The position numbers and the translations under genes were made by a program. 64,000 bases of DNA from Nitzschia sp. pyKryTriq1 (lineage: Eukaryota > Bacillariophyta > Bacillariophyceae > Bacillariales > Bacillariaceae): positions 1,116,001-1,180,000 of the forward strand of contig OY101124.1 of NCBI GenBank assembly GCA_956465555.1, in the 5' to 3' direction. Below, piece after piece: positions 231 through 62,785 of this stretch (positions are counted from its first letter, which is position 1; every line of letters begins with the position of its first letter). The notes under the pieces are model-generated. The model worked only from the letters and a program-made list of their open reading frames with translations, was not told where the DNA came from and did not search any database.

Positions 231-1530
231 GGCCAATCAATCAATCAATCAATCAATAGGATTGTTTTTCTGGGGATGAAGCGCTGCTTCAAAGAATCGT
301 TGTGCTTTCGCAACAAAACAACAGAACTCTGCTTGTAGTAGTGGCGTGGCGAAGGACGTTCGTAGGTTTTGGGATTATGATGATGATGATTCAACGGATA
401 CAGAACGTACACCAAGCGCATAGTAACCCTGCGATTTGGAGATTGGAACTGACGCGCTACCGTTGAATTATTGTACGATGCGCCATGGTAACAATTATTT
501 TGACCATCTGTTGGAGAGATACCAAGTCTAAATCTGGCGAAATCGCTCTCCTTTGTGATTTTTTGTTAGAGCCAAGCATCCGTTGGAGCAGCGATTCACA
601 TGCTTCCAGTACGTAGGCAGCATATAATGTAAATACGACGAGTAGAGTGCAATCAGTTTCTCTTGCTACCAGTCCTACTTTTCACCTCCCAATTAGAGCG
701 AAAGTAAAGTCCTACTTCTGCGTACCGGTAATGCTATCTGAAAGGCTCAGACCACAGACGAGACGAAATTAGGCGTCATCGTCAATAAAACGACCAGACT
801 TCGTAGTAAGACGCACCGCTCGCTAACAAAGATCGACTTGTTACTCTACTTGTGCGCTTGGTACCAGGTACCAGTACCTGGTACAGTACGGAGACCGGTA
901 CCGTCTGCAGCAGGACCTACGTACCTGGTACCGTACACGTACGGTACCCTGTACTTCTACTTTGTGGAGTTTCCGACTCCTTCGAGCCAGTTGAATCTTG
1001 GTGAATTTGGTTCGTGTGAGTATCACGGCGGCACAGTATAAATAATTTTATTCAGTTATGAATACTTTATACAACCTGGGAAAGTTCAAATTCCCTGTAC
1101 AATCACGTAGCTTCCCTACTGGGGTTGACATACTCGCAGTACACACAACCAGAACGCCGACCCACCAATTCTGTGAGAAAAGATGGATACGACGGCTAAA
1201 ATTGGTGGGATAACCACGCCGCCCTCCGCGGCCATGGCGTTGCCGCCGTTTCCGCCTTGATAAGCATCGCAAGCGGTCAATGGTGGTAGCATTGCTTGGA
1301 GAGAGTACTGTAGTGCTGTTGTTGCTTCCTCTTTCGCATCTTGAAGAGAAGTATCCTCAGCGGATCACCAGTACTTGAAGCTGCATTGTGGGCTTGCTTG
1401 TCTCCTCTCCTCTCCTCTCCTCTCCAGTACCGGTACTGTCATAGTGCGTGGATCTCCGCTGCTCCGACCGAGCATTCGTTTGTCGTGTTAACTCCCGCGG
1501 TATACTGCCCCCATATACTTGCATTCAATA
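231..1530. other. Intergenic region with GTACC-type palindromes
   Basis: No convincing gene is present; the short frames here are composed of repeat-like sequence. The stretch holds a TCAA microsatellite next to the left-hand gene, a GAT run near 378-391, one TACCGGTA at 723-730, a dense cluster of GGTACC/GTACCTGGTAC-like palindromes at about 858-955, a CTCCT pentanucleotide repeat near 1401-1425 and a second TACCGGTA at 1428-1435. The last two lie about 100 bases upstream of the NB-ARC gene and fall in its presumed promoter or 5' leader. Confidence 0.6.
858..955. repeat. Cluster of GTACC/GGTACC palindromes
   Basis: Within about 100 bases there are three TACC(A/T)GGTA nonamers (862-870, 875-883, 922-930), two GGTACC hexamers, an ACCGGTACC and several GTAC tetramers. 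They form overlapping inverted repeats that could fold into small cruciforms. The cluster belongs to the same family of short palindromes (TACC-GGTA with zero or one spacer base) that is scattered through the non-coding DNA of this window. Its function is unknown. Confidence 0.7.
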
Positions 1531-6540: not shown

Positions 6541-6597
6541 CAATGATTGATTCTTCTATGCAATATAATTATTCATAATGAAAATTCGAATTCTAGT

Positions 6598-7251: not shown

Positions 7252-8359
7252 ACTCTATCTCCTTCCGCCAAATCTTGAAATTGTGAGCAAACGACGGAAT
7301 TATTGTTCTTCGGCCACTACGCAAGTCTCGAACTCCTTGGCACGACCGAACGAAAAGGTTCACCTTCTCGCGCGCCAAACCCGCATGCAACCATCATCAT
7401 GGACGCGTTTACTGTACCGGTAGTTTGCAACGACCAAATAAATAGCGAGAGGCCCCCTATCTCTCTAGCACCGCGGTACCGCGGTACGTACGTACTGTAC
7501 TGTACATGCACTACACGCTGTGTCTCACGTCGACACGTGGGTACCGGAACCTGGTACCAGTAGGGGGGTGGGCAAGTCCTGCGGGTCATCTGTCTGTACG
7601 CCATCAGTTATCTAAACCACTCCTCGGTACTAATTTAGCCCAAAATCTGACGTCACATGAATAGTTGAAGAACCTACGAAATCTACTCGGTAGTAGACCG
7701 GTGCTAAACCTACAACAAGCAATAATTCATGGCAGATAGCTAGTCTACGGAGTATGTAGCAGTCCGTAAAATATGGCTATTTTAGCTGAAGCCATTCTGC
7801 GCTGCTTTTGCATTTTTACTACTAGTAGAAGTTCTTTGTTCTCTCTCTTGTTAGTACTAAGTAGAGAAGGATCTTTTGAATTGTCGCATTACTATATTCC
7901 CAAGAATACTCATCGATACACTATAGAGTACCAGTACTCGAGTACTGACGACGACTGGTTTTGCTTGCGTCCTTCAATAACAGGTTCCTCTGACAACAGC
8001 AAGATTCTGCAAACAAGGAAGCACCAGAGATCCCTCTCGAAAACAAAAGTAATGTACAAAGTAGAACGACGGGGGGGGGGGGGGGGGGTAGTACAGGTAA
8101 GTTACGAATAGTAGCTTGGCCTTGTACTACTAGGCTCACAAGAAACACCATGTTCTTGAAATCAAGTCTATTTTTGTGAATCCCACCTAGTACTGCTGTC
8201 TGTGCAATGATTGATGTCCGCCAACAACAGTGCGTGGTCCTGGCGGAAGGTTCCATTATTTGAGTGTGTACTTTGTCTATTTCTCTGCCAGCCAGCTAGT
8301 AGACTATTGCAGCATGTCGAGCACTGTGGAATACTCATACGGGTACGGTGCGTGTCTTC
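7252..8359. other. Intergenic, low complexity with a G18 tract
   Basis: No supportable gene. The region holds a TACCGGTA at 7415-7422, a GGTACC/GTAC-rich patch at 7475-7562, several TAGTA/CTAGT-rich stretches and an uninterrupted run of 18 guanines at 8071-8088. It forms the 3' flank of the plastid-targeted gene that ends at 8360. Confidence 0.6.
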
Positions 8360-9565: not shown

Positions 9566-10450
9566 TGTGGTGGTGCTCTGTGAAAGATGAATTCGACAAT
9601 ATTCAAGAATACACCTATAAACCTTCGGATCTATCTGCGGGGTATGACACCTGTTGATGATTTGCAAAAAGAAATTGCTAGTAGTAGTGAAAGGGTGATG
9701 GCCAACAGAACAAGTGGTTGCCTTTGCCGCGGTCGCTGAATTTGAAGCGATGATTGAAAGGATGCGACACACGACGGCGGCATCTACCGGTATCAAGGCA
9801 AGCAAGTACGTGCGTCACATCCGTCTGGCCTTCACCGTCATTTGCAATATTTATACACCTCTTGTTTGCCTCTTCTTTCGGCATTGTCTCTGCATGATGC
9901 GCCGTCAATGATGGTACTTTCGCGGAAGCGATGGTGCGTTCATTGATAATGCTGGAGTGATCGGGTCAGTCAGGCAACTGGACATCCCTACCCCACGCGG
10001 TGAATGGATGCGAGACCGCAATGCTTTTGCCAAAAAGTCAAATCTACTTTTTGCAAAAGCAATTTGCACCTTGAAGTAGTGTCAAGGTATGGAACCTATG
10101 GCCATGGTCGGTGGATCGGAGGGAGTTTTCGTACGTAAAAAAGCTCTGTGCGCCCTTCTTTCTATTGATCGAATTTGCTGGCTGGCTGGCTCGAAATAAA
10201 TCTGGCGCGAAAAACGACTGCCCGCCGATGGATGGACGATCTGGAGGATCTCGGATCTCGTGGTGGCGGTCGGTCGGTGGATGCGTGTACTGGTACTTGT
10301 ACACTGGTACACGTACCGTATGATACCGGTAGAGAGGCAGCGCAGCAAGCAGCATCTACTGCTGTTGGAAGTACCACTAGCTGCTCCTACTACTGTAGTT
10401 CCTGCTATTGTTACAATCACGAAGTCTGTACTCGTAATAACTAACCAGCC
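9566..10450. other. Divergent promoter region between plastid protein and ARP4-like gene
   Basis: This 0.9-kb segment separates two divergently transcribed genes. It contains TACCGGTA at 9785-9792 and 10324-10331, with GTAC-rich DNA between 10278 and 10320. A short inverted pair near 10028-10062 (CTTTTGC / GCAAAAG) could form a hairpin. No coding region is supported. Confidence 0.55.
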
Positions 10451-14182: not shown

Positions 14183-15541
14183 GGTCAACAAGTAGGACGA
14201 GTTGGTGTGATGATAGATGAGATGTCGGGGGCGGGTCGGTTGTTTCCGTTTTCTCGCTATTCGCGATGTCGCGTCTCAATCAAAGCGCGCCGCCGTTTGT
14301 CGTGTGTGGTGGCGCGAGCATGTTCGTGGAAAGACCCGGATTTACTCCAAAAGTCCTACGTAAGATTTATCGCGTGAATGCATGGGATGGGATTTATTCA
14401 ACGGTCCAACATGCTTCATGCATGCGCAGGCTGCCACAAGACCACGACGACCCCGCCGACTCCTCTTCCTCTACGCCCGCAACGCCCAACAACCAAGAAC
14501 ACAAAACACAAAACACCCATTTACACCATCAACTATCGTTCATGGATGTCGTTGATGCTACTGTTGTGTCGCCCCCCCCGAGCCCTCTCCGCGTAATTCG
14601 GGCGTCTCCATACTAACCCCAGGTAGCCCCTTGGCACTTATCACGCCCGCCAAAACTGCTGATACTGCTACTGCGAAGATCAAGACTACTTTTGAAATTC
14701 TGAGCTCCAATCCGGACTCCACCGCATTTCGTAATGCCATACTGTAGATGACAATTTCAATGCTCGAATCGAAGAGTGCTACCTGTTACGGTCGTTTTGT
14801 TCCATTCGTAGAGCCTGTACAGAATATAGTATGGCTTTTCGATGAATATGTCAGCCGGAAAGACACCGTGCGATGTTGCATGCCTTGTGGAGGTGCTGGC
14901 CATTGCATCAGGTTGACAGCGTCTCCTGTTTCACGCCCATGGCATTACTTGATGACGATCCTTTAACCAGTGGTCTCTTGCTGCTACGACTGGTAGCCCT
15001 TCTAGGACGTTGATGTTGCTATTGCTGTACTATAGAAAGTCAATAAAGAAGACTGACTCCATCGGAATACGGTAAACGGAGGTCTATAATACAAAAGTAT
15101 GGTAGCTTTGAAAAAGAGAGGACGAGTAGATACTACTGTAGTTCTTGAAGTAACAACTAATATCGGTAGGTTCAGAGAAACAAAACTGCTGCTTTGACGG
15201 TGAAGAAGAAGTATATTTCTATCAATAGAGTAGAATAGGTTTAGAAAAGAAATTACAATCCAGCAGCAGAACCCGTCACGCCCCCCTGCATTATTCTTTT
15301 TACTTGATCCTCCTCAAATCAGTACTGGTAGCCTTGCATTTTACAGGAGGACCCAACTACAGTACAGTAGCTCGAGCCTTGCTGCTGTTATTACTGTGTA
15401 TTTGTAGTAAACGTAGGTTTACAACTACAATGAGTACAGTAGTAGCATTAATGGAAAAACGAGGAGTAAATATTGCGGTTGAAGTAACAAATAATAATAC
15501 CGGTATCATACGTGTACTGTAGGTTCAAGGAAACAAAAAGT
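14183..15541. other. Intergenic region with a degenerate copy of the tRNA flank
   Basis: No gene is well supported. A 60-codon minus-strand frame at 14558-14740 encodes one hydrophobic segment but has no other support. Around 15101-15200 the sequence resembles 15429-15550, the region next to tRNA-Phe: shared blocks include GAAGTAACAA, AGGTTCA and GAAACAAAA in the same order, ending in TGCTTTGAC versus TGCCTTGAC. This suggests an old local duplication reaching into the tRNA gene. One TACCGGTA lies at 15498-15505. Confidence 0.5.
15535..15539 (-). terminator. RNA polymerase III T-tract terminator of tRNA-Phe
   Basis: On the minus strand, TTTTT begins 3 nt after the tRNA 3' end. A run of four or more T on the non-template strand is the standard RNA polymerase III stop signal. 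Confidence 0.75.
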
Positions 15542-15614: not shown

Positions 15615-17113
15615 TGGCTTGCTGCCATGCATGGAACAGCCCATTGCTTGTACATAAAGCTAAAACAAAGTATTGTGGGTTGACAGCAGGTTAGAAATTT
15701 TAGAATTCGACTCCACTGACCTCTGAAGTGCGCGCCTGGCGCAAGCCAGACGATACAAGCACCCGTACCGGTAGGCATCACCAGTTCTGCCAGAATCATG
15801 ATCAATCATCACAGAATTCCCTCACTACTGGTACCAGGTACCAGTTTTCAAAAATGAGAGATAGCCGTGGTAAATTATGCACTATGCACTGTGATAGCGC
15901 AAAAGACGCTGATAGTGCTGATAGTAGTAATTACCACTGCTAGCCTGCCTCTCTCGTACTACAAAGAGCTGATACTACCATTCATTTATAGGTTTAACCG
16001 TGTGCTCTATCAAATGGTGTCCTCGGTGGGTTCATGGGACATTTATTTTTTGGTTACAACGGGGGTGAAATCTGACCTCAATTGAGGTCCTGACCTCTCA
16101 AATTGAGGTCAGCGGTATAATAGACACTATCATAGCCTTCATTCAAATTAACACGTGATTTTGACGCGCTAGAATGTGCAGAATTTCGGTGGTAGGACAG
16201 ACTCCTACCAGGTTCTACCGGTACGTGCGCTACCACGCATTTCCGCGCTTTTGGTACAGCCAAACTTCTTCTGATTGGGTCCTGTTTACTCCTTCTCCGT
16301 GACGGCAAAAAACACCCGGTTCCATAACATAACATACAGTTCTAATTTTATCTACCACGTGCTTGACTTCTCTAATTCCTAGTAGGAGCACAATAATGCA
16401 CATCTCTTCCCCCCTGGTGCTTAACCAACAACGAACGGGAGCAGTTTGATCACACACATAAATGCAAAATTGAAGCAAAAAGCTCCATGTAGGGCCTATA
16501 TTATTGTTACGCACGAGCAGACTAATAAATAATATATTTTGGAATAATAATATGGGCGGGAAACGACCAACGGGATTTTCACATCTCCATTTGCCGGCAA
16601 CACCAAACATTGCAGATACCATACAATACCGGTAGGAATAATGGGAATCGATGGAACAATGGCACCAGAACAGCTCTTTAGACGACTTGAATGAGAGGTA
16701 TAATGAACAAGAACTACCAGCAGTACACTATAAGACAACAAGTTAAATCAGCATGTGCACTCTTATGGTGGTTTCGTGCGTGAATCACAAATCGCAAATC
16801 ACAACAGCATAGTAGCGTCAAAAAAGAAAAGGGGCACTGCTCCTATATAGCGAGACAAGGCTGTGCTTCTTCGGACGACGACGACGATGAAGAGGGTACA
16901 GATCATTTGAAATAAAAGAAAACGACACATAATTGACTATTCCCCCGACGACACGCCTCGTCCTCTACTACCATACTCCTCATCTTCGTCCATCCAGCAA
17001 GGACCTCCTCGTCTACTGCCACGCCAGCACAAAGAGGAAGGGAGGACGAGAGTACAGAAACTACTACTAGTAGTCAGCATAGGGTGATAAACAGCAGGCT
17101 AGTAAACCGACAG
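15615..17113. other. Gene-poor intergenic region
   Basis: No gene is supported in these 1.5 kb. Visible structure: TACCGGTA at 15766-15773, 16216-16223 and 16627-16634; TACCAGGTA at 15832-15840; a perfect 16-bp palindrome and its repeats at 16073-16112; and a GACGAC run just before 16890. The last 150 bases, rich in CTACTAC/GAGGA, form the presumed leader of the downstream HA-domain gene. Confidence 0.55.
16073..16112. repeat. TGACCTC/GAGGTCA inverted repeat array
   Basis: A perfect palindrome GACCTCAATTGAGGTC occupies 16074-16089. It is followed at once by TGACCTCTCAAATTGAGGTCA, a second imperfect copy of the same inverted repeat. The four half-sites TGACCTC/GAGGTCA alternate in orientation within 40 bases. 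This could be a binding site for a dimeric or tetrameric regulator or the relic of a small foldback element. No gene starts within 1 kb on either side. Confidence 0.6.
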
Positions 17114-18094: not shown

Positions 18095-18127
<33 letters not shown>

Positions 18128-19345: not shown

Positions 19346-20746
19346 TAGGAGGAGTACAACACCAGCACGAAGAGGACTCCTGCTAGTACTAGTGGTAGCT
19401 AGGAGCGGCACCACTGCTGGTGCTACTAGTAGTACTAGCTGCAAACAACTGAACAAGAAGAAGAAAATGGAGGGAACGGCTCTTGGTGCCGTTGTTGTTG
19501 CTCTCCTGCTGCTCGTCGTCCTTCATTTGTTGCTGTTCTCGTACTTTGGAATGATCATGATGATCGTCCGGCCGCGATATACTAGTAGTACTACTCTAGA
19601 GTAAATAGTACTAAAGAATTCCTCAACAACAGATCCACTCTAGTAGCTAGTCCCTACTAGTACTACTACTAGTGGTACTAGCAGTGATTGTGGTCGGCAG
19701 GAGCATTTTGCTGCTGGTGGTAGTAGTACTTGTACTCTACTACTAGTACTACAGTGCTACCGGAACCATGTACTACGACAACGAGGAGGATATTAGTACT
19801 ACTAGTCTAGTAGAGTAGAGTCTAATACTACTACTAGGGTCGAGCAGCACCTACTCCCACTTACCATGATCCACTTGTTGGCACCTTTTTGCAAAACCGT
19901 TGTCGGAGTAGGCTACTTCTTTTTTGTCGCACAGTACCGGTAGTAGTAGTCTACAGCGCGGCCACCCGCCCACCCACGGCGGTGCGTGTAATACTTGTAC
20001 CGCACGCCGATAGACTTTGTAGCCTTGATATGACGGATGACGGCGTCTCTTTTTTCTGTGGTCGCCGCGGCCGGCATGCAATACTTATACCGGCGGCGGC
20101 GCCGCCAGTACAAGTGCTTTATCAGACGAATGTGTACTTAATGATTGATGAACAAATGAGGATAATGTTTATATATGGAACGAGCGGCTGCTTCTTGTTC
20201 TTCGGCTCTGCTCATTCCGATTATTGCGTGTTCCTGGGACATCAGTACGAAGTACGACGTGTTCGTACCTTCCTCACTACAGTACCGGTATCTACAGTAC
20301 TACTAGAAACGGCCAATCAGTTCGTATTGTGGTCGGGCTCGCTGGTGGTCGGTTGGGACTTCTGCGAGCCTCTTCTCGTGGATACGTACAGTATTACACG
20401 TGCTGGTGCCTCAAAAATGCTTGTAGTAGAGCAGTTTACTCTACTTGGTATTAATAGCGGAAGTGCGAGAATTTACCGCATTCCCGAGAAATCACAATTT
20501 GACGATACATACCAATACCCCGGATCGGAGTAGTAGACATCTTCGAAAGCAGCGAAAACTTCCAGAAAAAGAGAAGCCAACCACTTTGTTATTAACTATT
20601 CTTCGATATCTTGTTTGCTAGACATAGACAACACGACCACCAGTAGTAATATTTCGTTCTTTGCGAAGGGCGTAGTAGCTGCTGCTGGCGACCAATCCCA
20701 TCAGTTTTCCTTGTTGGTGTCCAGCAATAAGGCACAATCCCTCAGC
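19346..20746. other. Low-complexity CTAG/GTAC/TAGTA-rich spacer
   Basis: The spacer between the two HA-domain genes is dominated, from 19320 to 19850, by interleaved TAGTA, CTAGT and GTACT words (for example TACTAGTAGTACTACT-like runs), which are nearly self-complementary on both strands. TACCGGTA occurs at 19935-19942 and 20283-20290. Longer reading frames here consist of this repeat DNA and are not credible genes. The 5' end of the second HA gene may include sequence from about 20615, where its frame is already open. Confidence 0.55.
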
Positions 20747-21679
20747 ATGGATTCCCGTTTTTTCTCCCAATGTAATCAGTCTGAAAATCGCTGGTGTGTG
20801 AATGATGATGAAGTTGACCACGACCACAACTTTGTGTATCAGGAAGGCGAACTTGACGACAATCTATGGTCCCTAGTCCGGGAAGACATAATTGAGATCA
20901 AAGATGATATTCAAGCTCCAGCGTCTTCTAACTTTACATGGCTTCCTCCTGAATTTCCGAGGCTGCTGGTGGGAGTTCACGGATTTGGAAATAAGGCTAC
21001 GATTACTCGACCTGCCCGGGCTAAGAAGAGTACACAGCACGAGACGGGTCACCAGCAATCGCCACTACAAGAATTCATATACGAGGGGGGCGATGATGAA
21101 AGTGATGGTGCCCAATCAGTCGCTTCTCTGCCATGTACCGGTACGAGTACTACTATCAGCCACAGAAACAACGAGGTAGTACCTGACTTGACCGATCGAT
21201 GGATGGCACGCTTCCAGGATCTTCTCGAATACCGTGAAAAGTACGGCCATTGTATCGTGTCGTATACTTTCAAGGAGAAGCCGCTCCTGTACTCTTGGGT
21301 AAAGCGGCAACGGTATCAGTACAAATGCTTGCTCCAAGGCAAAGCCTCCCAGCTGACAACCGAACGAGTGCAACTACTTGAGTCGGTGGATTTTGCTTGG
21401 GACACACACGACATCGCATGGGAAACAAACTATGCCTTGCTGAAGGAGTTCGTCAAGTTCCACGGCAATTGCCACATTCCAGTGAAGGAAAGACGTATGT
21501 TTGCCTGGGCGAAACGTCAACGATATCAACATAAACGTTGGATCGCAAAGCAAGATTCGACGATGACAGAAGATCGCCATCACCGCTTGAGCATGCTTGG
21601 ATTCCGCTGGAGCAACACGGAAAACGAGTTGCATGGCTCGCACGGGGTGGTGAAGTCGCCAGAAAGTCGTCTACCATAA
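20747..21679 (+). CDS. Helicase-associated (HA) domain protein, short paralogue
   Basis: The frame is open from 20615, but the first ATG is at 20747 (MDSRFFSQCNQSENRW), giving 310 residues. An upstream exon or an earlier start is possible. Residues of about 151-291 hold two HA domains: RFQDLLEYREKYGHCIVSYT with WVKRQRYQYK, and LLKEFVKFHGNCHIPV with WAKRQRYQHK. Each ends in a WD/RWS-type motif (FAWDTHD, LGFRWSN). They align closely with the domains of the gene at 17114, including the ALTAL-type spacing. The N-terminus is acidic and unrelated. A TACCGGTA at 21136-21143 is one of only two such motifs lying inside coding sequence in the window. A nucleic-acid-binding role is inferred from the family. 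Confidence 0.75.
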   Translation: MDSRFFSQCNQSENRWCVNDDEVDHDHNFVYQEGELDDNLWSLVREDIIEIKDDIQAPASSNFTWLPPEFPRLLVGVHGFGNKATITRPARAKKSTQHETGHQQSPLQEFIYEGGDDESDGAQSVASLPCTGTSTTISHRNNEVVPDLTDRWMARFQDLLEYREKYGHCIVSYTFKEKPLLYSWVKRQRYQYKCLLQGKASQLTTERVQLLESVDFAWDTHDIAWETNYALLKEFVKFHGNCHIPVKERRMFAWAKRQRYQHKRWIAKQDSTMTEDRHHRLSMLGFRWSNTENELHGSHGVVKSPESRLP

Positions 21680-23528: not shown

Positions 23529-23897
23529 CTAAGCATTGTTCCGAGCAGTGGTGTTAGTAGTTATACTAGACACGGTACCATACGCCAGAGGAATTGCAAA
23601 CACTGGATAGTAGTATAGGAAGCCTTGTATAACATTCTTTTCTCCCTCTTGCACCAAATTTATGATGTGTTCGTTGAAGTCCTGACGTCCTAGCATGGCC
23701 GCAACGTCTCGCTGGACCGAAACAGCGTTACGTTTGCTGAAATTTCTTAGCTCGGTGGTTAGGTTGATCGTATCGATCCCGGTGTAATCCGCTAAGATTT
23801 TGTTGATCTGGTAACTGTTTCCGTATTTGGCTGCTTTGAATTCTCCGCTACTGCGCAAGGACCCTTCACGTTTGTATCTGTCAGCAACTTTGTACAT
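23529..23897 (-). CDS. Hypothetical protein or gene fragment
   Basis: The 122-codon frame starts at ATG 23897 (MYKVADRYKREGSLRSSGEF) and reads like ordinary protein, with even amino-acid use and a helix-rich centre (INKILADYTGIDTINLTTEL). The protein-like reading continues upstream of the ATG for five codons (DYLWT) and stops after a TTTTAG that would be a good splice acceptor. However, only 180 bases separate it from the TraB-family gene, and no plausible first exon with a start codon is visible there. It may be an exon whose upstream part was lost, a pseudogene fragment, or a small intact gene. The family was not recognised. Confidence 0.4.
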   Translation of the reverse strand: MYKVADRYKREGSLRSSGEFKAAKYGNSYQINKILADYTGIDTINLTTELRNFSKRNAVSVQRDVAAMLGRQDFNEHIINLVQEGEKNVIQGFLYYYPVFAIPLAYGTVSSITTNTTARNNA

Positions 23898-25346: not shown

Positions 25347-26622
25347 TGTGCAAAAGCTCGAAGAAGAATGAATGTTCCGTCCGTTGCTGGTCGATGATTC
25401 CGCGAAGAAGAAGAAGGCTGGAGGTACTGGTGCCGGTACAAATGCCTCTCCTGCGTCCTTTGTAAGGATGCTGGAGACCGGATGGAGACCGGAGTTAAGA
25501 CAGCAGTAAGAACCAGGTAGGTCGGGAAGCTGGCAGCTGGTCGCTTCTTGTAATTTGTTCTGATGCCGAATGAAGAACATCGTCGAAAATCATCGGTGCG
25601 GCTGTACAATTACGCTGTACCGTGCCGGTATGTACCGATACTGGTACCGGTATCCTTGTTCTTGTCCTTTGGCGGGCTTTCCTTCAACATCTTCTTTCGG
25701 GGGACGATGTTGATTTGGTTTTCGGGTGGATGGATCCCTCACATTCTTTCGCTTCCCTCAAAACGAAAAAGATCTCCCCGCGCACGCCTGGTACGACAAT
25801 CAATCCCGCGAAATTCCAAATCCCGCGGAATTTTGGTTTGAATCCACGAAATCGAAATCCCACGGGATTTTGATCCTCTCTCCCGCCAAAACTACGTGTC
25901 GCTTCCGATAGGACTATTGAAAGCCAACCATTCATGACAGTCGGAACCTCCCCCCCCCCCTCTTCCGATGAAACACATCCTCTAGCTAATACTGGAATAT
26001 TCGACGACCAGATGCGTCGCTTCGGATGCAAATGCTCAACTTACCAAATTGACACCTTCCATTTTTCAAAGAATAGTCCCTTGATTTCTGCTGCTTCGAC
26101 CCCCTCTACGAGATTTTTAATTGCATATTCGAAATCGCAAAAGAATAAGGAAAATGAATTTGGGGATGCACAAAATTAATTGTGCGTTTTCCAGAAAGTG
26201 AGAAAAAAATTTGTGCGAAAATTTTAACGGGCATTTCGCTCGGTGGGGTCTTAAGTAAACAACTGAATCTCGCGCCCACGAGAGTGGCCAGGGAGGGGGT
26301 TGCAGCCGCGCTCGCGATTGAAGAATACCGGTAGAATAGTTTGTGCGGTTGGCTTCACTAGAAAAGCACGAAATTCTACCGGTAGATATGTTCGGTACTG
26401 CACTGCACTGCACTGCACTGTACACTTACCACTCATCTATTCAGAACTGAACTGTGTGTCGCCTTTGGCGACAGCACAGGTACAAGTACCTAACCCTTGC
26501 CTAGCCTGTCTACCGTTACTGCTAGTCTACAGTACAAGTACCTGGTATGCCGCAGTAGGCGGTATTGTCCGTACGTGCGTCCATCCCCTGGAGAACCGGG
26601 AGAATTTATGACAAAATTGACT

Positions 26623-27151: not shown

Positions 27152-27173
27152 TAGACTATACCGGTATAGTCTA
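27152..27173. promoter_or_regulatory. Perfect 22-bp palindrome centred on TACCGGTA
   Basis: The sequence is self-complementary over its full 22 bases; its core is ACTATACCGGTATAGT. It lies 170 bases upstream of the first U-box start codon and is the longest perfect palindrome seen in the window. A binding site for a symmetrical dimer is one reading, and a micro-element end is another. Confidence 0.6.
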
Positions 27174-28679: not shown

Positions 28680-29098
28680 TGTGTAAAAAAATCGTAATGT
28701 TGTGGTTCGTAAAATTTTTGCTGTTGAATTGTGAGAGGGGGGGGGCGAGCCATGTGGCAATCGTGGGGCAGGATGGATACGATCGATTTTTCATCATCTT
28801 TGTCATTTGTCAATCACATCGTTGACAGTTGACAGGTACCGGCAGTGTATTCTTTTTTTTCTCGTGATCGATTTCCATCACACATCACATCGCTTGCTTC
28901 TTGCTTCGTTATTATTTTGGGTTCCCATGGCGCTTCAGTCGGAAGCAGTCGCAACGCGCCGGGCGAGCCCATGGCGACTTTGAAGTCGCTAATTAACACT
29001 GATTTTTCGCCCTTATCAAAAAAATTGAAAATTCCGACAAGCGCCTTTTGATTCTTCCTTGGTACCGGTAGAACGCACCCCATACATATCCAATGGGA
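28680..29098. other. Intergenic region before the nested element
   Basis: It contains a TACCGGTA at 29063-29070, an eight-G run at about 28737-28744 and a GCGCC-rich patch. No gene is supported. Confidence 0.5.
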
Positions 29099-32666: not shown

Positions 32667-33434
32667 TAGTAGAGGTTTTGCTTGGTGGTCCAACGATTGC
32701 TGCGATTCAGTCAGTCAGTCAGTCAGGAACTCATTTTGGAGTACCGGTACACGGCACGGTACAACATGAAGTACGAAAGTCTTTCATACATAATAAGCTA
32801 GACTAGTCTACCCGGATGCACACACTCTACTAGTAGAGAGAGTATCTACCGTTAGACTCATGATACAATAGCTACAGGTAGTACCTATTCAGGTATGGAG
32901 TACAAGAAGTACTACTGTAGTACGCTAGCATGTACAGGTACCACGCATGTATATACTGTATTTTTTATCCCCCCTCTGCCCGCCGATGCCCTGCCCTTGA
33001 CGGTGGCAGGAGGATGCTACAACTACTAGCAGCAGCACCACAAGAATATGTACCGTACAGTATCATCAACAGCAATCATCATCATCTTGGATAGTGAAGA
33101 TGATGGTACTACGGATACTGTAGGATAATGATGTTGTCCCCTGTTGATCTCCCTCCCCCTCATTTATGAGTGCCTGTGCGCGCACGCGCATGTGCGCCAT
33201 CGCAACGAAATCAGAAGTCCGTGAAACGGAAGCCGAAGACGCTCACGCAGCACATCACACAAGGACGATCATCAGAAGAAGAAGAGACAACACACAATAC
33301 GACACACGACACACATAGTGCGTCTCCATTGCCACTTTTCATCATTCCAGCGGCAATTAAGACAACTACAAACTACAACATCGACCTACAAGATCATAAA
33401 TTATTTATCCTCCCACTTTAATTAAAAATCAGTC
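32667..33434. other. Intergenic region with short repeats
   Basis: It contains a CAGT tetramer repeat at 32708-32726, TACCGGTA at 32742-32749 and a stretch rich in GTAC/CTAGT from 32740 to 33130. A GCGCGCACGCGCATGTGCGC alternating purine-pyrimidine patch lies at about 33177-33196. No gene is supported. Confidence 0.5.
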
Positions 33435-38348: not shown

Positions 38349-39818
38349 GACGACTAACTGTCTCTCTCTTTCTCTCTGTTCCGATGCTTCGATCGAAAAA
38401 ACAAAAACAAGGTCACAAAAATTCAAACTATGGTACTGGGATGCCGACGAGTTCTACCCTTATTACTAATGTGGGTTTCCGCTTGTCCGAGTTGTTGAGT
38501 AAGAGACAAGGCAGGATGATGGTACTCGTGCTTTGTATGTGCTGGAGATCTGTACGCCTGTGCTATGTAGCTTCGCTTGCTTGTGCAGGGAGTCTGAACC
38601 GAAATCCCGAGCTTCCCACAGCACAGACAGCAATTTCTAAATTCATTCTGTGTGTTTTCTGTGAAAGAGGGCATTGCGAGAAAACCAATCGTACCTGGGG
38701 TGCTTTTTTGTACTGAAGTGAGTCAACGGAACGCCAGCCGGCAATTCATTTATACATGGATGATTATTCAGCCAATGTCCACGAATGAGTAGCAGTCTCA
38801 ACGAAACCTACGCCAAGTTTGGTTGCGACTCCGACAAAAGTCATGTGTTTCTGACCGGCATCCTCGCCTCAGGTTTTTAAACGATTCTTCCCAGATTTCG
38901 GGCGACAAAACGGACAAAAATCAGTAAATCTGCAAAAATTGTACGTTAATGACAGAAAAGTGGAAAAAATAATGTGACGTCCATAATTATTGTCGACGTC
39001 AAAGCAAAGCACCACATCATCACCAGCTGTTCATTGAGAAACACTGCTCAAAGACACCACAAATAATAGTAGACCTAGGTAGTTCCTTAGTACCATTTGG
39101 CAACCATGCATGTACCCCACATCGATCTGTCTGTTGTATCGGTCGTCCATCGACCGAGCTACTAGCACGACCACAGTAGTAGAGCATTCTGCTGTTCATT
39201 CCTTCTTCCAGTATCAAAGGCAGCGTAGTAGTAGAATGGCTTCAGCTAGTTTCGTACGATCCTCTTGTTGTTCTTGGGCAGCAGCTCTAAGTTAGCGGTT
39301 GCACACTAGTAGCTGAAGCCACAATTCTACGCTGCTTCTGTAGCCTACTACTACTACTACTACTACTGGTAATGTAGTTGGAATTTACCGGTACTGTTGC
39401 TGTCGTGGTCTTCTACTAGTAGTTTCCTCTCAGAGAAGAAGCTGTGTTACGTAGGAGCATCATCATGGAGCTTGGTATTTCAGTCTACCGTAGGATCCCC
39501 CCCCCAATGCTGCTCTAGTGAGCATCTGTACTGCTTTATTCTACCACAGGAGTAAAGCTTCTACCGGAAGGAGTAGTGCTGAGGAACCACCACTCTACTA
39601 GCTGCTGTGCCGAGATAATCTCACTAGTAGTACTACTACCGTATTACTGCTGGTGTGGTGGGTTGCGAAGTCATACCAACACCTCACTCCAGTACAAACT
39701 GCGATTACTATGTCGCACTGAAATGAATATTCAAGCCAATAACAGTATGCCCCCCGTAGAAAGCTTCGGCATGGAAAGCTTGTATCCAAAAGAGTAGTCT
39801 AGTAGGAGGCAGGTCAAT
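38349..39818. other. Intergenic region, kinesin to TFIIS
   Basis: No gene is supported. The first 150 bases hold the presumed kinesin promoter with a TCTCTC run. Further on are AT-rich DNA, a CTA trinucleotide repeat at about 39342-39366, TACCGGTA at 39386-39393 and more CTAGT/TAGTA-rich DNA to 39620. Confidence 0.5.
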
Positions 39819-42117: not shown

Positions 42118-43245
42118 GAATGATGCTAGTGGAGGGGGATCCTCATACTCCTGGATCGTTCGCAGACCACGGCTTGCAGCTTAAGATATTGTATACAACT
42201 TCTATCAACTACTCTAGAGAGGTGTTTTGATGCACCCCCCATCTTCTATGTCCTCGCAGCAGGGGAGATATTATATTAATAAAGTTAGTAGGCTCTTGGT
42301 CCTCGTGCAGTGATACACCGGTAGGAAGAAGATACAAGATGCGTCGTCTTATGTGGTTTCGTTGTTGTTCGTCCTCCTCCTTGCGTGTTGCTGCAAGAGA
42401 GAACTAGTAGCTCCAGTGCTCTCTCCTGCTTGGGGGATAGGAACAAGAGGACGTGGTTGATTTCGTTCTGCCTTTCTTTTATTTCGGCTCCTCCCATCGA
42501 GAGAAAAAGGGTCGAAGACTGTACAACCAGAGGAGCAGTTCATCTACTACTACCATCCCGTGGTAGGTGTTCTACTATCATGAAGCAGGATCCTTGTTGT
42601 TGCTGTTCGATGGTCGTGGATCGTCAGTTCATCAGCCAAGGAGCAGCACTCCTCCCAAGAAGAAGAACAACGACCAAGAACAAGGCACCGCTGAATAATA
42701 CAAGCCACCATGCCACTGCCTTCTTGTTCAAGAGGAGAAGAAGCCAACCATTCTAACAGTCGTACCGGCAGATTCTACTCCTACGCGTACTACCGGTAGT
42801 AGAAACCGCTACCGGTACTCGTCCTCTCTACTACGTATGTACCGGTAGTCGAGTTGAGGGGCGGGTGGAAAAAGATGACCGTCCGTACTCCGTACCGCTG
42901 CAACGTACACCGTACAGACCCAATTGTGCCATTTTAGTCGAGGCGGTCAAGTTCGTGTGTATATTATACAGGAACGTATATGTTAAATCTAAATTGACAA
43001 CATTCCGATCACAAGCGCCAGCCTCGCCGCGTGCCATGCAATGCTCTTCGTCTCTCTTTTCTCGATCGGTTTGAAAACGCCGCCGCTTCATCTCTCTTTC
43101 CTTTCATCCTCATCGACGTTCTTTTGTCTCTCTTTGCTGTGCCCCTTTCTTCTCGTAGTCTTACGAGTACGGTACTACTGAAGCACTCCTCTGCTAGTCT
43201 ACTTCTTTCACTTTACAACCCAAAATAAAAAACAATAATAACACC
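42118..43245. other. Intergenic region, FCP to ARL gene
   Basis: The first 180 bases are the FCP 3' UTR (AATAAAG at about 42278). The rest has no supported gene. Three TACCGGTA motifs are packed into 57 bases at 42791-42847. Confidence 0.5.
42791..42847. repeat. Three TACCGGTA palindromes in 57 bp
   Basis: Copies at 42791-42798, 42810-42817 and 42840-42847 form the densest cluster of this motif in the window, about 400 bases upstream of the ARL8-like GTPase start. Confidence 0.8.
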
Positions 43246-44128
43246 ATGGGAGCCGTGCTAACAAAATTGCTGGAGGTCTTCTGGACGAAGAAGCTCGACA
43301 TTGTTGTGATTGGTCTTGAAAATAGGTTCGTAATACCGGTAATAAGAAACAAATGGAATGAAGGAATGACGCCGAATTATTTATTTTTGTGGTCATCGGA
43401 TGTCATGCCGATATTATAATCGCATGCATACTCACCCTTTTTCTTGCATTTCATTTCATTCCAATACAATCACTACAATGAATCAACCTCAGTGGAAAGA
43501 CCACTCTTCTTTCTGTCTTGGCCCATGGAGAACCCGTCGAGACTGTTCCCACCATTGGCTTGAATGTGAAAGTATTCAAACGGGGTAAAGTCAATATGAA
43601 ATGTTGGGACATTGGTACGTGAGGAAAGCAAAAAGAAAACGACGTTACGTTGTTGTATGATTATTCTTCGATTTCGGGATCTAAATTTGCACTGTATGTT
43701 CTCGTATTTTCTCGTCATTGGACACGAATTACAACTTAATATCTACCGTACGGTTATAATGATATGATATGATATGATATGATATTATTTCTACAGGAGG
43801 TCAAGAGCAATATCGAAGCGAATGGAGCCGATACACCAAGGGTTGTGATGTTGTGTTGTATGTAGTCGATGCGGCGGCTCCTCAGAAATTGGGTGCAGCC
43901 AAAAAGGAATTGCACAAATTGTTGGACGATGGAAGCATTGGATCCACCCCGATGCTTGTTTTGGCGAACAAAATCGATCTGAATCCTCATGTCGGGGAGG
44001 CCGAGCTTATTGACAAACTGCAACTCAACTACGTGATGGAGACTCCATGGATGGTGCTGCCAATATCGGCATTGAAATGTACAAACATTGAGCAAGTCGT
44101 AGAGTGGTTGACAGCGCAGGGAAAGTAG
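43246..44128 (+). CDS. ARF-like small GTPase, ARL8-like
   Basis: Three exons (43246-43325, 43493-43614, 43797-44128) join in phase 2 and phase 1 to give 177 residues. All G motifs are formed across the junctions: G1 GLENSGKT (split by intron 1), switch I VPTIGLNV, G3 WDIGGQ (split by intron 2), G4 NKID and G5 SAL. WDIGGQEQYRSEWSRYTKGC followed by VVLYVVDAA is closest to ARL8, which controls lysosome and vesicle positioning through kinesins. Canonical ARL8 lacks a glycine after Met1; this protein begins MGAVLTKLLE, so N-myristoylation in the ARF manner is possible. Intron 1 contains a TACCGGTA (43334-43341); intron 2 contains a GATAT pentamer repeat (43761-43785). The intron 1 donor is GTTCGT. 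Confidence 0.88.
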
Positions 44129-49163: not shown

Positions 49164-49641
49164 ATTAATGAACAAAAAAGCAACACCTTTGCTATCAGCT
49201 TAAATAAATCATGGCGCCATGCCCTTCTTAGTGACAATCAATGAAGAATACCGGTACTGGATGTTCATGTTATTAGACGACGACATTTCAAAACATCGAG
49301 AATTTTTACCCCTCGGATCTCGGATCTCGGATCATGTGGCAGTCCATCGAGTCATTCTTCTTTCTTCGCCTCTTTTATTGGCGATCTTCGCCGCCCGTAC
49401 CGCGCCCAAAACAAACGTTCGAAAGAAGAATGACATCTTCTACTCTACCGGTATTTCTCTCTCTGCCACAAGGAATAATCTCTCTCTAGTAGCTAGAGTA
49501 GAGAGAGACTACAGGTTCGTACCAAGTGAACTCGCTCTACTAGGAAATTTTGTTTGTTTGGTTGGTTACAATGACTTACAGTATGTTCGACTTTCCTAAA
49601 TCCTACTCCTACAGTCAGTACGAATCGAGACGGTTGCTCTT
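49164..49641. other. Intergenic region between two minus-strand genes
   Basis: TACCGGTA occurs at 49249-49256 and 49446-49453. There is a tandem CTCGGAT repeat near 49313-49332 and no gene. Confidence 0.5.
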
Positions 49642-53386: not shown

Positions 53387-54466
53387 CTAGCATTCACCGT
53401 GGTACATAGTATGTCCCTCTTGTACGGCATCCACTTCTCCAGTCTCTTCGTCGTCTCCTCCCTCCTCCGACATGTTATTAGGCTGTCGACTAGCGGCAGT
53501 GACTTTTTGTAGCTCTTGGCGGGCATAGTAGGTGGTCAGTGCCACAGCAAAGACACTAAAGATAATACCAATCACCAAGACGATAGTGGTCGTCTTCGAA
53601 TTACCCCCTGAGCTATCCGCAAGACTTCCCGCTGATGCTCCCAAAAAGACAAACATCACCGTGGCGGGAAGAATCGCCAGCAAGGATACCGCATAGGCTG
53701 TGAATGAGACTGCCATGCCACCGGCACCATAATTGAGATAGGGTGAAGCGTATATGACTGGGGAGAGTCGTAATAGGACCATGATGCGCAATCCCTTTTC
53801 TTCCATGGCATTGTCCAGAGCCTCAAAGAGTTTGAACTTCTTGGTCAGGCCAGCCACGCAGTCCCTTAACAAAAATCTCCCGAGTAAGAAGGAGAGTATC
53901 GCACCAGCACTCGCCCCAACAAAGACGGCAATTGTGCCCAACAAAATTCCGATGCCAAGTCCAAAGGCATTTGCAAAGACGTAGCCACTTCCAAAAGTCA
54001 GAATTACTCCAGGAATAAATAGCATCGTCGTGCAAAAGATCACCAGCATGAACACCAGGACGCCTCCCCCGGGGTTCGCTTCGACCCATTGAAGAAAGCT
54101 ATTCATGCCGCTCTTTATGTATTTGTTCGTTAAAGAATCGGCCACTATAAATGCAATGAACGCCAGAAGAAACAGGCCGACACCGATTCGAATGTATCGA
54201 TTACGTTGTCTTTTCAATTCGTCTTCCGGGACACCTTCTTCTTCTTCTTCATTTGATGCATCGACACTGAAGGCTGCCATATCCATGGTAGTATCCAAGG
54301 TTGTCAACGTGGTGCTTATTGCGGGCAACTTTTCGTTTTCCTCTTTTGATAAAGGTCCACCGTTCGGACTACTCGTACCGGTACTGCTCAACGGAGCTTC
54401 TCCACATTCTTTCGTTTGGGATGAATTTTGGTTCGTCGTCGTGGGGAGTGCTTGCGTTTGCGTCAT
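53387..54466 (-). CDS. VTT/DedA-domain (TVP38/TMEM64-like) membrane protein
   Basis: 359 residues from MTQTQALPTTTNQNSS; the frame is open upstream to another ATG at 54688, which would add 74 residues without a recognisable signal. After an acidic cytosolic region (EEEEEGVPEDELKRQ) there are about five or six membrane segments. The conserved VTT core is VILTFGSGYVFANAFGLGIG, then AGAILSFLLGRFLL (the F-x-x-G and GRxxL hallmarks) and LRIMVLLRLSPVIYASPYLN with an R-x-SP motif and NY near the re-entrant loop. This family includes scramblases and proton-coupled transporters of endomembranes, bacterial DedA and human TMEM41/TMEM64. A role in lipid or ion homeostasis of ER or plastid membranes is inferred. 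Confidence 0.82.
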   Translation of the reverse strand: MTQTQALPTTTNQNSSQTKECGEAPLSSTGTSSPNGGPLSKEENEKLPAISTTLTTLDTTMDMAAFSVDASNEEEEEGVPEDELKRQRNRYIRIGVGLFLLAFIAFIVADSLTNKYIKSGMNSFLQWVEANPGGGVLVFMLVIFCTTMLFIPGVILTFGSGYVFANAFGLGIGILLGTIAVFVGASAGAILSFLLGRFLLRDCVAGLTKKFKLFEALDNAMEEKGLRIMVLLRLSPVIYASPYLNYGAGGMAVSFTAYAVSLLAILPATVMFVFLGASAGSLADSSGGNSKTTTIVLVIGIIFSVFAVALTTYYARQELQKVTAASRQPNNMSEEGGDDEETGEVDAVQEGHTMYHGEC

Positions 54467-55063
54467 CGTACTATTGAAACACGATGTACTACCTGCCTGC
54501 TGGTCGAATGAGTACAGTCTGTCGTTCAATGAGGCAACAATTCTACTGTACACTCTCAACCTTCGCACTCTTTCTTGCTGGAAGCTGAAAAGAACAGACT
54601 CCTTCGTGCTGTACGGATGGCGAGAAATCCCATCGAACATCGCATCATCGCTGATCACACGCTCGCACGATTGAGGACGTTCCCGCATTATTTCGTTGAT
54701 AGTGCGCTACTGTACCGGTACCTGGTACTGGTACCGGTAGATGCTGGCGGTGCTTTTTGAAGAAGCGTGCGGTCACGGACGGTAGCGGACGTTCGATCAG
54801 GAATGCATCGCTAATCGCTAGGGACGTTGACGTCATACCCATGATTGAATGAGATTCTTTGAGTCATTCGCAACCAACCAACCACAATACAGTACCGCAC
54901 GCAAAGCTACCGTATGTATGCAAACTACAGTATGATGATACAGTACACCCATCATCGCATCACGCGAGCCTACCGGTAATAGAGCATTTCGAATTTTTCC
55001 ACCCATCACCCATCGCACTTCTATCTTCTATGATTGGCATCCACAATGGAAGATAGATGAATC
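54467..55063. other. Divergent promoter region
   Basis: It holds TACCGGTA at 54713-54720, 54732-54739 and 54971-54978, and TACCTGGTA at 54719-54727, giving 27 bases of overlapping palindromes at 54713-54739. The spacer lies between the VTT-domain gene (-) and the methyltransferase gene (+). Confidence 0.6.
54713..54739. promoter_or_regulatory. Compound palindrome TACCGGTA - TACCTGGTA - TACCGGTA
   Basis: Three overlapping or adjacent copies of the motif family occur in 27 bases. The arrangement is itself nearly symmetrical about its centre and could fold into a hairpin. It sits between divergent genes. Confidence 0.6.
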
Positions 55064-60836: not shown

Positions 60837-62785
60837 ATGGCTACGTCTACAACTTACACAGCCGTCAAGATTCCGTGTTGTCTCTGCGGAGTCTCCATTC
60901 TCCCCAACGCTGCCAACCAGTGCAGCGCGTGTTTGGCCCAGCAATTCGATCTCAAGGAACTCCTGCAAAAAGGCGGCGATCGAATCGATATTTACCAGTG
61001 CCGACAATGCCGGAAATTTGCAAGGACAGAAACAGTCTTTGAAGATTGCGGGCCTGAATCCCCGCAGCTCTTGAGCATCTGTCTCAAGCACATTCCTGGC
61101 TTTGTGCAGACTAAATCGACCTCTGCCAAATTGCACATCGTCGATGCGATTTGGGTTTGGACAGAGCCTCACTCGATGCGGCTCAAAGTGAGAGTCACCG
61201 TTCGAACAGAACTAGAAAATGTTCAGATGCAGCAACGCGTCATGGTGGAATTCCAAATCAAGTGGAAGCAATGTCCCGACTGCAATCGAGAATTCACCAG
61301 TCGAACCTGGCAGGCCATTGTTCAGTTGCGTCAAAAACGAGATCAAGGGGCGCCGCGCAAGGGATTGGCGGCGCTGGAAATGGCCTTGAAACGCAATCTC
61401 GAGATTCGAAAACATGTCGTACGTTTCATAATATTATCATCATGATATGGTACATCTGTCGTCATTTGGTTTATTGTGATCCATCCTCTCACCACCGGAC
61501 CTCATTGCTTGTCGTTCTGCTTCGTTTGTCTGTTTGCCTTGCCTTGCCTTGCCTTGCCTTGCCTTCTTTTACCATACCGGTAAAGTTACAAATCGATTCG
61601 TGTCGCCATGGATTGGACTTTTATTTTTTGGGTTTGCCCCAAGCCCAGTCCTTTGCGAGTTTTCTCCAGCGATTGGCACCGATGCGAATCAAAACGAGCC
61701 AAAAACTGGTCAGTACCGATAATCACAGCAATACCGCGCATATCAAGTATACCTTGACAGCCGACATGGTCCCTCTTTGTCGGGATGATTTGATTTTGGT
61801 AGGTAAGGGGTCGCGGAGCAAACTAGCAGGGCGACTGGGACTGGTTCTGAAAGTCACGTCCAATATTTCGATTGTGGATGCGTCGCCGAAACGGATCCCT
61901 ACCTTGGATACGATGGATCTTCCAGCAGAATCCTATTATAAAACGGGAGGAGACAAAACCTATCCAATTCTACAAACGGCCGAACGGATGATTCGATGGG
62001 TCGTCTTGGACGTGGAACCTTGCGAGGACCCAAATAGTAGTATTACTGACGATGACCACAACAACAACAACAACAATGCAGCATCAGGAGATGAGGGACC
62101 TCAGAGTGGAGGAGTCGTCGACAAGTACAAGTATACCATGGCCAATGCATTGGTAGCACGAGAAAGCGATATGGGTCAAAATGATACCACCTATAGTTGC
62201 GTCACACATTTGGGGAACTTGATCCAGCCGGGCGATATTGTCTTGGGATACGATCTGGAATCGACATGGGCAACCTTGTCGCTGTCCACATCGTCTTTGG
62301 GAGTCGTGGATTTGGAGGAAGTGGTACATTCCAATGTGGTATTACCAGATTGCGTCTTGGTCAAGAAAGTGTCTGGAAACCCCATGGACGGCAAAGGCGG
62401 CACAGGTGGTGGTGTCGAAGGTGGAGACGTTGATGACGACGAACCCGTCCGAGATGGAAAGAAACGAGTCAGCAAGCGAAAACTCCGCCGTCGCAAAAAG
62501 CAAGACAAGAAGCAACGCGAACTCGAAGAAACAGCAGCCCGTATGGGATTCTTGGGAGATGCTGCGGAAGGATGGGATGGTCATGACGAGGAGGACGAGG
62601 ATGGCCTGATGGATGATGACCTAGTGGCAGATTTAGAAGTGGTCGAAAAGGAACTCGCTACGTACCATGAAGAGCAAGGACAACATCAACAAGAAGAAGC
62701 TACAGAAACTGAAGCTGCACAAATCCAAACGACGGAAGTAAATATCAATGACGTCGACGATGGTTCTGAGGAAAAGAGCGGCTAG
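60837..62785 (+). CDS. NMD3: 60S ribosomal export protein NMD3
   Basis: Exons 60837-61418 and 61586-62785 (phase 0, donor GTACGT, acceptor TAAAG) give 593 residues. NMD3 binds pre-60S subunits and bridges them to the exportin CRM1. The zinc-binding N-terminus has CCLCGVSILPNAANQCSACL, then IYQCRQCRKF and QCPDCNREF. The core is recognisable as HVLQIDSCRHGLDFYFLG across the splice junction, then RIKTSQKLVSTDNHSNTAHI and VPLCRDDL. The C-terminal part has a basic cluster (KRVSKRKLRRRKKQDKKQRE), then an acidic stretch ending LVADLEVVEKELATY, where the nuclear import and leucine-rich export signals lie in homologues. The intron holds a TACCGGTA (61575-61582) six bases from its 3' end boundary and a GCCTT pentamer repeat (61536-61565). 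It acts in the nucleus and cytoplasm. Confidence 0.92.

Follow-up and report, generated by a model that had tools for sequence, protein, structure and literature searches.

The cis-regulatory logic of diatoms is poorly known. In yeast, general regulatory factors such as Reb1, Abf1 and Rap1 have abundant, strict sites in many promoters, and such sites would work like the palindromic octamer TACCGGTA described here, with no sequence relation claimed. Identical in sequence to our octamer is motif M94 of another stramenopile, Phytophthora infestans, a palindrome over-represented in a promoter set and counted among 103 predicted transcription factor binding sites (PMC3597505). That report links M94 weakly to hyphal promoters (p = 10^-2), against 10^-26 for its sister motif M93, TACATGTA; M94 belongs neither to the motifs found over-represented in promoters as a whole (M1, M8, M13, M60, M64 and M67) nor to those tested with reporters (M39, M51, M58, M64, M75 and M95) (PMC3597505). 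In the alga studied here, the M93 word lies at control level (692 genome-wide versus 696), whereas TACCGGTA is in genome-wide excess. The highly iterated palindrome of cyanobacteria, HIP1 (GCGATCGC), is likewise an exact palindromic octamer iterated genome-wide far above chance, and its abstract names methyltransferases as a clue to it (PMC4390886). However, HIP1 is bacterial, whereas TACCGGTA is nuclear, mostly non-coding, biased to upstream DNA and subject to a flank rule. The heat shock element, described as inverted TTC..GAA with gaps of 0–2 bp (PMC11267843), also has inverted 3-bp arms around a short gap, but its arms are TTC/GAA and those of TACCGGTA are TAC/GTA. Among the matches listed in literature word searches for TACCGGTA, for parts of it and for diatom promoter motifs, no diatom report of the octamer was found; among the matches listed, CCGGTA in diatom-titled papers occurred solely within an appendix of construct sequences and within a primer (PMC10706280, PMC6599040).

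The window, meaning the whole 64-kb stretch of DNA that was analyzed, holds exact copies of TACCGGTA at all 30 starts listed earlier and no further copies. An enrichment of about 30-fold over roughly one expected copy had been proposed; the excess stands, but its size was understated, being about 85-fold against an expectation of 0.35 by dinucleotide shuffling or 0.33 under a first-order model. Words that share its composition (n = 2,520) average 0.89 copies in the window, and the runner-up among them, ATACCGGT (n = 9), is this site again, read at an offset. The next best of the other 255 palindromic octamers are TAGTACTA (13) and TACTAGTA (12). The excess also holds across the 40.65-Mb genome, with 15,515 exact copies versus 839 of the reversed-word control, a frequency of one copy per 2.6 kb and about one per called ORF. 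Location and context were analyzed in a 224-kb sample comprising the window and 16 further loci; outside this sample stand eight loci chosen for holding sites, the plastid, the mitochondrion, C18, the duplication-test loci and the HSF loci. In the 98.7 kb of non-coding DNA of the sample, 98 copies were found versus 1.2 expected (~81-fold). Chance and base composition are ruled out as the source of the excess by the shuffles, the first-order model and the same-composition words. The 30 TACCGGTA sites of the window, none with an assigned strand, are as follows.

723..730, exact match
1428..1435, about 95 bp 5' of the ORF at 1531-2316
7415..7422, convergent ORFs on either side
9785..9792, divergent intergenic, 24 bp ahead of the SRP RNA gene
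10324..10331, about 120 bp 5' of the actin-family ORF at 10451-11968
15498..15505, 36 bp past the 3' end of tRNA-Phe
15766..15773, divergent intergenic
16216..16223, divergent intergenic
16627..16634, about 480 bp upstream of the ORF at 17114-19345
19935..19942, tandem intergenic
20283..20290, about 460 bp upstream of the ORF at 20747-21679
21136..21143, within the ORF at 20747-21679, which has a weak coding score (19.8)
25645..25652, centre 68 bp upstream of the minus-strand ORF at 24075-25580
26326..26333, divergent intergenic, paired with 26377
26377..26384, divergent intergenic, paired with 26326
27159..27166, about 180 bp upstream of the ORF at 27343-28068
29063..29070, upstream side of the weakly scoring minus-strand ORF at 28191-28679
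32742..32749, tandem intergenic, centre 79 bp beyond the ORF at 31743-32666
39386..39393, tandem intergenic
42791..42798, first in a cluster of three, with convergent ORFs around
42810..42817, second in the cluster (42791-42847)
42840..42847, third in the cluster (42791-42847)
43334..43341, convergent ORFs on either side
49249..49256, centre 89 bp upstream of the minus-strand ORF at 47892-49163
49446..49453, centre 286 bp upstream of the same minus-strand ORF (47892-49163)
54376..54383, within the minus-strand ORF at 53387-54688, at 305 nt from its presumed ATG
54713..54720, divergent ORFs on either side, paired with 54732
54732..54739, divergent ORFs on either side, paired with 54713
54971..54978, about 90 bp upstream of the ORF at 55064-56734
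61575..61582, doubtful 5' part of the NMD3 ORF at 61271-62785, possibly intronic

Most copies are non-coding: 98 of the 105 in the sample lie outside called ORFs, and density is ~18-fold lower within called ORFs (0.056 per kb) than outside them (0.99 per kb). Coding sequence nevertheless stands above chance, with six copies in confident ORFs versus 0.69 expected under synonymous shuffling. The original prediction placed two window sites (21136 and 54376) in coding sequence, which is about right; mechanical ORF calling gives three of the 30, adding the doubtful site 61575. In the latter's ORF, the best Pfam NMD3 stretch begins at residue 107 and matches the profile from position 184 of 243, which casts doubt on the first ~100 codons and makes an intronic location of the site possible.

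Among the 66 confident ORFs, 30 carry a copy in an upstream non-coding stretch of up to 500 bp. Upstream DNA of the sample contains 49 sites in 26.8 kb, versus 17 in 21.1 kb downstream, a ratio of 2.27 (label-swap p = 0.0036; bootstrap 1.3–5.3). When only ORFs with a full 500 bp are considered, a copy is present upstream of 29 of 63 and downstream of 10 of 66 (Fisher p = 0.0002). The over-representation in promoters expected of a transcription factor binding site was therefore found, in weaker form outside the window: the bias is uneven, at 10-fold in the window and 1.8-fold across the remaining 16 loci, and reaches just p = 0.045 in a nearest-end test. In an upstream-bias ranking of 380 8-mers, TACCGGTA comes first, with an uncorrected z of 3.0, nothing unusual for the top of 380 words; TCTGCA, one of 1,920 6-mers, exceeds it (26 to 1, z 4.2), and triplet words are biased the opposite way, downstream, more strongly than TACCGGTA is upstream. 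The distance from site to start codon is not fixed (1.4–2.7 per kb over five 100-bp upstream bins), and convergent intergenic DNA also carries them far above chance (six in 12.2 kb).

The flanks had been described as differing among copies. This is correct at most positions, with information of at most 0.10 bits per position past the first base in sample sites, but the first flanking base is strongly constrained. Read outward from non-coding sample sites, it is C in 102 cases, G in 53, T in 36 and A in five (n = 196). Genome-wide, GTACCGGTAC occurs 4,817 times (reversed control 132), CTACCGGTAG 1,116 times (46) and ATACCGGTAT 459 times (14), while TTACCGGTAA, with 47 copies, is level with its control (43). 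By our arithmetic, the square roots of the flank-class shares of the 15,515 copies sum to ~1.05, as expected from two half-sites read independently. The core is strict: the best one-mismatch neighbor is enriched 6-fold in the non-coding sample versus ~81-fold for TACCGGTA, and symmetric substitutions at core positions 1–3 fall to chance level. The octamer thus displays base preferences that extend into its flanks, as in a transcription factor binding site.

On balance, we think it probable that TACCGGTA forms the core of a cis-regulatory element serving a large fraction of promoters, a candidate site for a symmetric protein acting as a broad activator or chromatin-opening factor. This reading draws on the abundance, mainly non-coding placement, upstream bias, flank rule, strictness and clustering of the sites, together with the identical octamer M94 of P. 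infestans. The unfixed start-codon distance, the convergent copies, the excess in ORFs, the unevenness and unremarkable z of the upstream bias, the absence of M94 from the general and the reporter-tested motifs of P. infestans, and the site changes within a duplication (below) speak against it. Among the candidates originally offered, a shared regulator site draws support from the upstream bias, from the two-fold symmetry of the flank rule and from the steep drop on a single mismatch. The element would have a consensus of roughly (G>C>A)TACCGGTA(C>G>T), and a sequence-specific protein, probably a homodimer, would bind it with two-fold symmetry, reading both half-sites and one flanking base on each side. 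Judged from sequence patterns, such binding would alter transcription, with the putative factor serving as a broad activator or chromatin opener rather than switching a single regulon. An element this strict, with about one copy for each called ORF, offers a direct handle on a possible major promoter factor, and is relevant to the construction of diatom promoters. A bolder version, which we hold to be rather unlikely, is that one stramenopile protein predating the diatom/oomycete split recognizes VTACCGGTAB and serves here as a general regulatory factor, its sites renewed as GTAC-rich tracts of promoters turn over fast at the local scale; TACCGGTA would then be, just as tentatively, a eukaryotic 'highly iterated palindrome' with about one copy for each called ORF. 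Should the P. infestans link hold, photosynthetic and parasitic stramenopiles would have a piece of regulatory code in common.

Several known binders and elements were compared with the octamer. Heat-shock-factor domain matches are very numerous in the alga genome (153), and RQLN, the canonical motif of the HSF recognition helix, is kept in three distinct HSF-like sequences (three of four loci, the fourth having no pattern match), so the recognition helices seen disfavor a heat shock factor as the binder. GAA..TTC words have no upstream bias (0.41 per kb upstream, 0.81 downstream), and the octamer does not show the GAA/TTC half-sites of a heat shock element, which rejects that identity. Grainyhead/CP2 proteins favor AACCGGTT; this word is found twice versus 0.85 expected in the non-coding sample, against 98 versus 1.2 for TACCGGTA, and such a site was likewise rejected. 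A profile search for the CP2 domain (PF04516) gave no match in the genome, with control genomes likewise silent.

A first alternative is sequence-specific mutation, in which tracts rich in GTAC would, through local slippage or template switching, yield GTAC-x-GTAC words, GTACCGGTAC being the commonest, and selection on proteins would keep these by-products rare in coding sequence; we regard it as doubtful, though a serious contender. Close pairs of TACCGGTA (0–30 bp between) number 1,864 genome-wide versus three for the control. Among 100 listed of these 1,864 matches, spacing is broad (9–38 bp) and no fixed spacing was found, with a mild short-range excess (8–13 bp in 32 pairs versus 19 if flat); a microsatellite or tandem repeat is rejected, there being no fixed head-to-tail period. 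Copies that overlap at 6 bp apart account for five of 89 neighbor distances and count in favor of this alternative. Within 10 bp of a site, GTAC density climbs to 28.6 per kb, up from 7.3, and GTAC pairs at 5, 6 and 7 bp number 44, 85 and 28 versus ~4 expected each. In a 98.7% identical segmental duplication, seven of nine sites are common to both segments and two, in fast-changing flanks, carry a one-base difference, roughly as expected from the divergence of the flanks; between the duplicates, non-coding windows rich in GTAC are more divergent than other non-coding windows (six and 64 windows, respectively), both in substitutions (2.0 versus 0.7 per 100 columns) and in indel columns (4.5 versus 0.7). 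The excess in confident ORFs also suits a mutational origin, and the earlier suggestion of micro-palindromes spread by mutation bias gains from it and from the clustering in fast-evolving tracts, without becoming our preferred reading. The close-pair excess of GTAC, 3.9-fold over local background (pairs at 13–40 bp), is made less special by controls in the same test: it is no higher than that of poly-G (8.3) and similar to that of triplet-repeat words (ATGA 3.7). Over 4–12 bp, CTAG pairs equal GTAC at 4.8-fold. Other observations run against mutation. by our arithmetic, GTAC pairs at 5–7 bp are ~10-fold enriched, and none of the 15 remaining palindromic 4-mers exceeds ~4-fold; GTAC and GTAC-x-GTAC words lack the upstream bias that TACCGGTA has; GTAC itself is at expectation in confident ORFs (287 versus 277); the preference for outward G far above A is not predicted by decay from C; and a control-level TTACCGGTAA is hard to obtain from slippage. 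Were TACCGGTA a by-product after all, it would mark an unusual sequence-specific mutation process.

An architectural protein might instead bind the octamer as a mark of genome organization (replication origin, nucleosome positioning, insulator or recombination), in keeping with its frequency of one per 2.6 kb, its presence in convergent intergenic DNA and its unfixed spacing to ORFs; we find this improbable, given the upstream bias and a GC content with no clear change within 400 bp of sites. Of the candidates originally offered, DNA modification and roles in nucleosome signalling, replication or recombination gained no support here. A DNA methyltransferase recognition site, comparable to HIP1, would account for an exact palindrome with a central CpG and extreme over-representation, but we rate it as highly improbable, with density far lower in called ORFs and with a CpG observed/expected ratio of 1.04 in non-coding DNA, where the lack of depletion indicates no mutational footprint of CpG methylation. 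Membership in a dispersed mobile element or repeat family, including a MITE, has the copy number in its favor and is scarcely credible: flanks are not shared among sites, which refutes it for the bulk of the sample as originally argued, and in the 19.9 kb of the window that was searched, both multicopy intervals found are free of sites. A triplet-repeat origin was also set aside. TACTAGTA and CTACTA words are likewise enriched, but on the 3' side (TACTAGTA, one upstream and 11 downstream; CTACTA or TAGTAG, 42 upstream and 96 downstream), and look like a separate phenomenon.

All 30 positions at which the original prediction had placed TACCGGTA in the window hold exact copies, and the list is complete. 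Dinucleotide shuffles set the chance level at 0.35 per window, and the excess is therefore about 85-fold. Across the whole genome (40,651,789 bases on 20 contigs, with the window at C10:1116001-1180000), we recovered 15,515 copies against 839 of the same word read backwards. The palindrome TACATGTA, by comparison, numbered 692 (reversed control 696) and the palindrome TACTAGTA 6,568 (reversed control 2,360). The excess of TACCGGTA is real, strong and genome-wide. Two of the contigs we take to be organellar from the ORFs in 4 kb of each, judged by eye and without a database match: a small one with red-lineage plastid genes and another with mitochondrial ribosomal protein genes. Together with 72 matches to light-harvesting proteins, they are consistent with a diatom, the source that the original prediction took for granted.

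For tests of location, the window was combined with 16 stretches of 10 kb each into a 224 kb sample, in which ORF calling relied on length and in-frame hexamer score. The 103 ORFs retained carry no intron or UTR models, so that part of the 'non-coding' DNA is in fact exonic and certain ORF starts are misplaced. Outside the called ORFs lay 98 of the 105 sites, a density per kb about 18 times that within them; a second-order model with sites masked predicts 1.2 in these 98.7 kb. The 66 confident ORFs (103 kb) contain six sites where synonymous shuffling predicts 0.69; GTAC matches its expectation there (287 versus 277). The octamer is thus rarer inside called ORFs, yet above chance there. Four of the six sites fall 124-305 nt past the ATG taken as the start and may precede the true start codon or sit in an intron; the other two fall at 983 and 1,346 nt.

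Intergenic sites are concentrated on the 5' sides of genes. Divergent intergenic regions carry 26 sites in 18.1 kb (1.43 per kb) and 3'-then-5' tandem regions 20 in 15.2 kb (1.32 per kb), compared with nine in 16.9 kb (0.53 per kb) for 5'-then-3' tandem and six in 12.2 kb (0.49 per kb) for convergent regions; locus edges without an intergenic class hold a further 37 in 36.2 kb. Anchored on the confident ORFs, the count is 49 sites in 26.8 kb upstream versus 17 in 21.1 kb downstream, a ratio of 2.27 (permutation p = 0.0036; bootstrap 95% interval 1.29-5.32), or 51 and 18 when overlapping copies are also counted. Upstream sites outnumber downstream ones by 13 to 1 within the window and by 36 to 16 across the rest of the sample, a nearest-gene-end test gives 35 versus 15 (p = 0.045), and 30 of the 66 ORFs have at least one upstream site. 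Among 380 8-mers with at least eight flank copies, TACCGGTA is the most upstream-biased (z = 3.0, uncorrected). In the ranking of 1,920 6-mers around the same ORFs, CCGGTA comes third (113 to 52) and TCTGCA, which is possibly another promoter element, comes first with a stronger bias (26 to 1, z = 4.2). Within 500 bp upstream of the confident ORFs, TACCGGTA keeps no constant spacing to the start codon. Over the same distance, the CTACTA/TAGTAG triplet words favor downstream flanks (96 versus 42 upstream), as does TACTAGTA (11 versus 1), opposite to TACCGGTA; both are possibly a 3'-end signal.

The first base flanking the octamer matters strongly. With one base added per side, the palindrome occurs genome-wide 4,817 times with C outward (GTACCGGTAC; reversed control 132), 1,116 times with G (CTACCGGTAG; 46), 459 times with T (ATACCGGTAT; 14) and only 47 times with A (TTACCGGTAA; 43), one of the 47 being on the plastid contig. 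Among the 196 outward bases of the 98 non-coding sites in the sample, 102 are C, 53 G, 36 T and five A (p = 4e-20 for the scarcity of A). Taken as shares of 15,515, the four extended words have square roots of 0.557, 0.268, 0.172 and 0.055, whose sum of 1.05 is close to the 1.0 predicted for independently read half-sites. Within the 98.7 kb of non-coding DNA, one-mismatch words of all twelve classes total 78 against 28.4 expected, led by TACTGGTA (24 versus 4.0). Symmetric changes at octamer positions 1-3 stay at chance level; of the three at position 4, TACTAGTA alone is enriched (15.6-fold). TACCWGGTA, longer by one base, is likewise enriched, A or T being the inserted base in 25 of 27 one-base insertions, where 1.27 insertions are expected overall.

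The sites also cluster, with 1,864 genome-wide matches to copy pairs at most 30 bp apart, and GTAC density close to them is about 4 times background. In the non-coding sample, GTAC pairs spaced by 5, 6 and 7 bp number 44, 85 and 28 against about 4 expected each, a roughly 10-fold excess; none of the other 15 palindromic 4-mers exceeds about 4-fold at these spacings. Over the whole 4-12 bp range, CTAG pairs equal GTAC pairs in excess (4.8-fold), and measured against local background, GTAC pairs are in 3.9-fold excess, not above the level of simple-repeat words. Since spaced GTAC pairs persist at a distance from TACCGGTA and GTAC-x-GTAC words lack upstream bias (2.02 per kb upstream versus 2.09 downstream), TACCGGTA is one upstream-biased word within a wider GTAC-spaced vocabulary.

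Most likely, TACCGGTA is a broadly used promoter element with a putative binding protein. Its symmetry, strictness and flank rule suggest a protein with two identical halves, each of which would read 5'-(G/C/A)TACC on one strand; given the upstream bias, this protein may occupy sites upstream of many genes. Because close to half of the confident ORFs carry a site, it would open or activate promoters broadly rather than switch a single pathway. Heat-shock factors were considered as the binder: their DNA-binding domain is numerous (153 genome-wide matches, fragments included), but three distinct heat-shock-factor-like sequences, at three of four loci, retain RQLN within their recognition helix, which argues against them. 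The kind of element is already known; its scale and strictness make an experiment worthwhile.

An identical octamer, M94, is one of 103 predicted binding sites of Phytophthora infestans, with TACATGTA as its sister M93 (PMC3597505). There, M94 is only weakly associated with hyphal promoters and belongs neither to the six motifs overrepresented in total promoters nor to the six tested with reporters (PMC3597505); the link to TACCGGTA is therefore a common word rather than a demonstrated common function. Protein-binding arrays with 123 P. infestans factors yielded 73 motifs, 13 of them similar to motifs of the set containing M94 (PMC11267843), and the main text of this second report does not contain the letters TACCG or CCGG.

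Chlorophyll a/b-binding (light-harvesting) matches number 72 genome-wide, fragments included, and equal-scoring ones led to a segmental duplication, of which 24 kb from each copy were compared:

C1, about 4.31-4.335 Mb: duplicated segment
C3, about 3.174-3.198 Mb: duplicated segment

The main alignment spans 15.3 kb at 98.7% identity and a second 6.1 kb at 97.8%. Nine sites are present in either copy, seven common to both and two differing by one base. Five of the nine sit in flanks that have themselves diverged, with about 6-22% of columns differing. By estimate, chance would hit about three of these five, against the two that were hit; these numbers do not establish conservation of the sites. 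GTAC-rich windows diverge faster between the copies, the top class comprising six windows only. One GTAC-rich region upstream of an ORF (L028:1500-1680, compared with its duplicate L029) accounts for 37 of the 64 columns that differ across its 4 kb.

The window contains several other features:

2534-4927, plus strand: NB-ARC domain protein
22437-23628: repeat family, 83-97% identical to pieces on C1, C2, C6, C7, C10 and C13
29094-31439: multicopy stretch with many near-identical copies on other chromosomes, showing 100% identity over pieces as long as 861 bp
44406-46094, minus strand: 562-aa ORF, candidate match to an AID/APOBEC-like deaminase (Pfam 26.4 bits, just below the cut-off of 26.5)

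The multicopy stretch probably consists of at least one mobile element with recent activity; neither it nor the repeat-family stretch contains TACCGGTA. The site at 9785 stands 24 bp ahead of an SRP RNA gene (9817-10037). Elsewhere, a locus with two heat-shock-factor domains (L036) has six sites in 3.4 kb.
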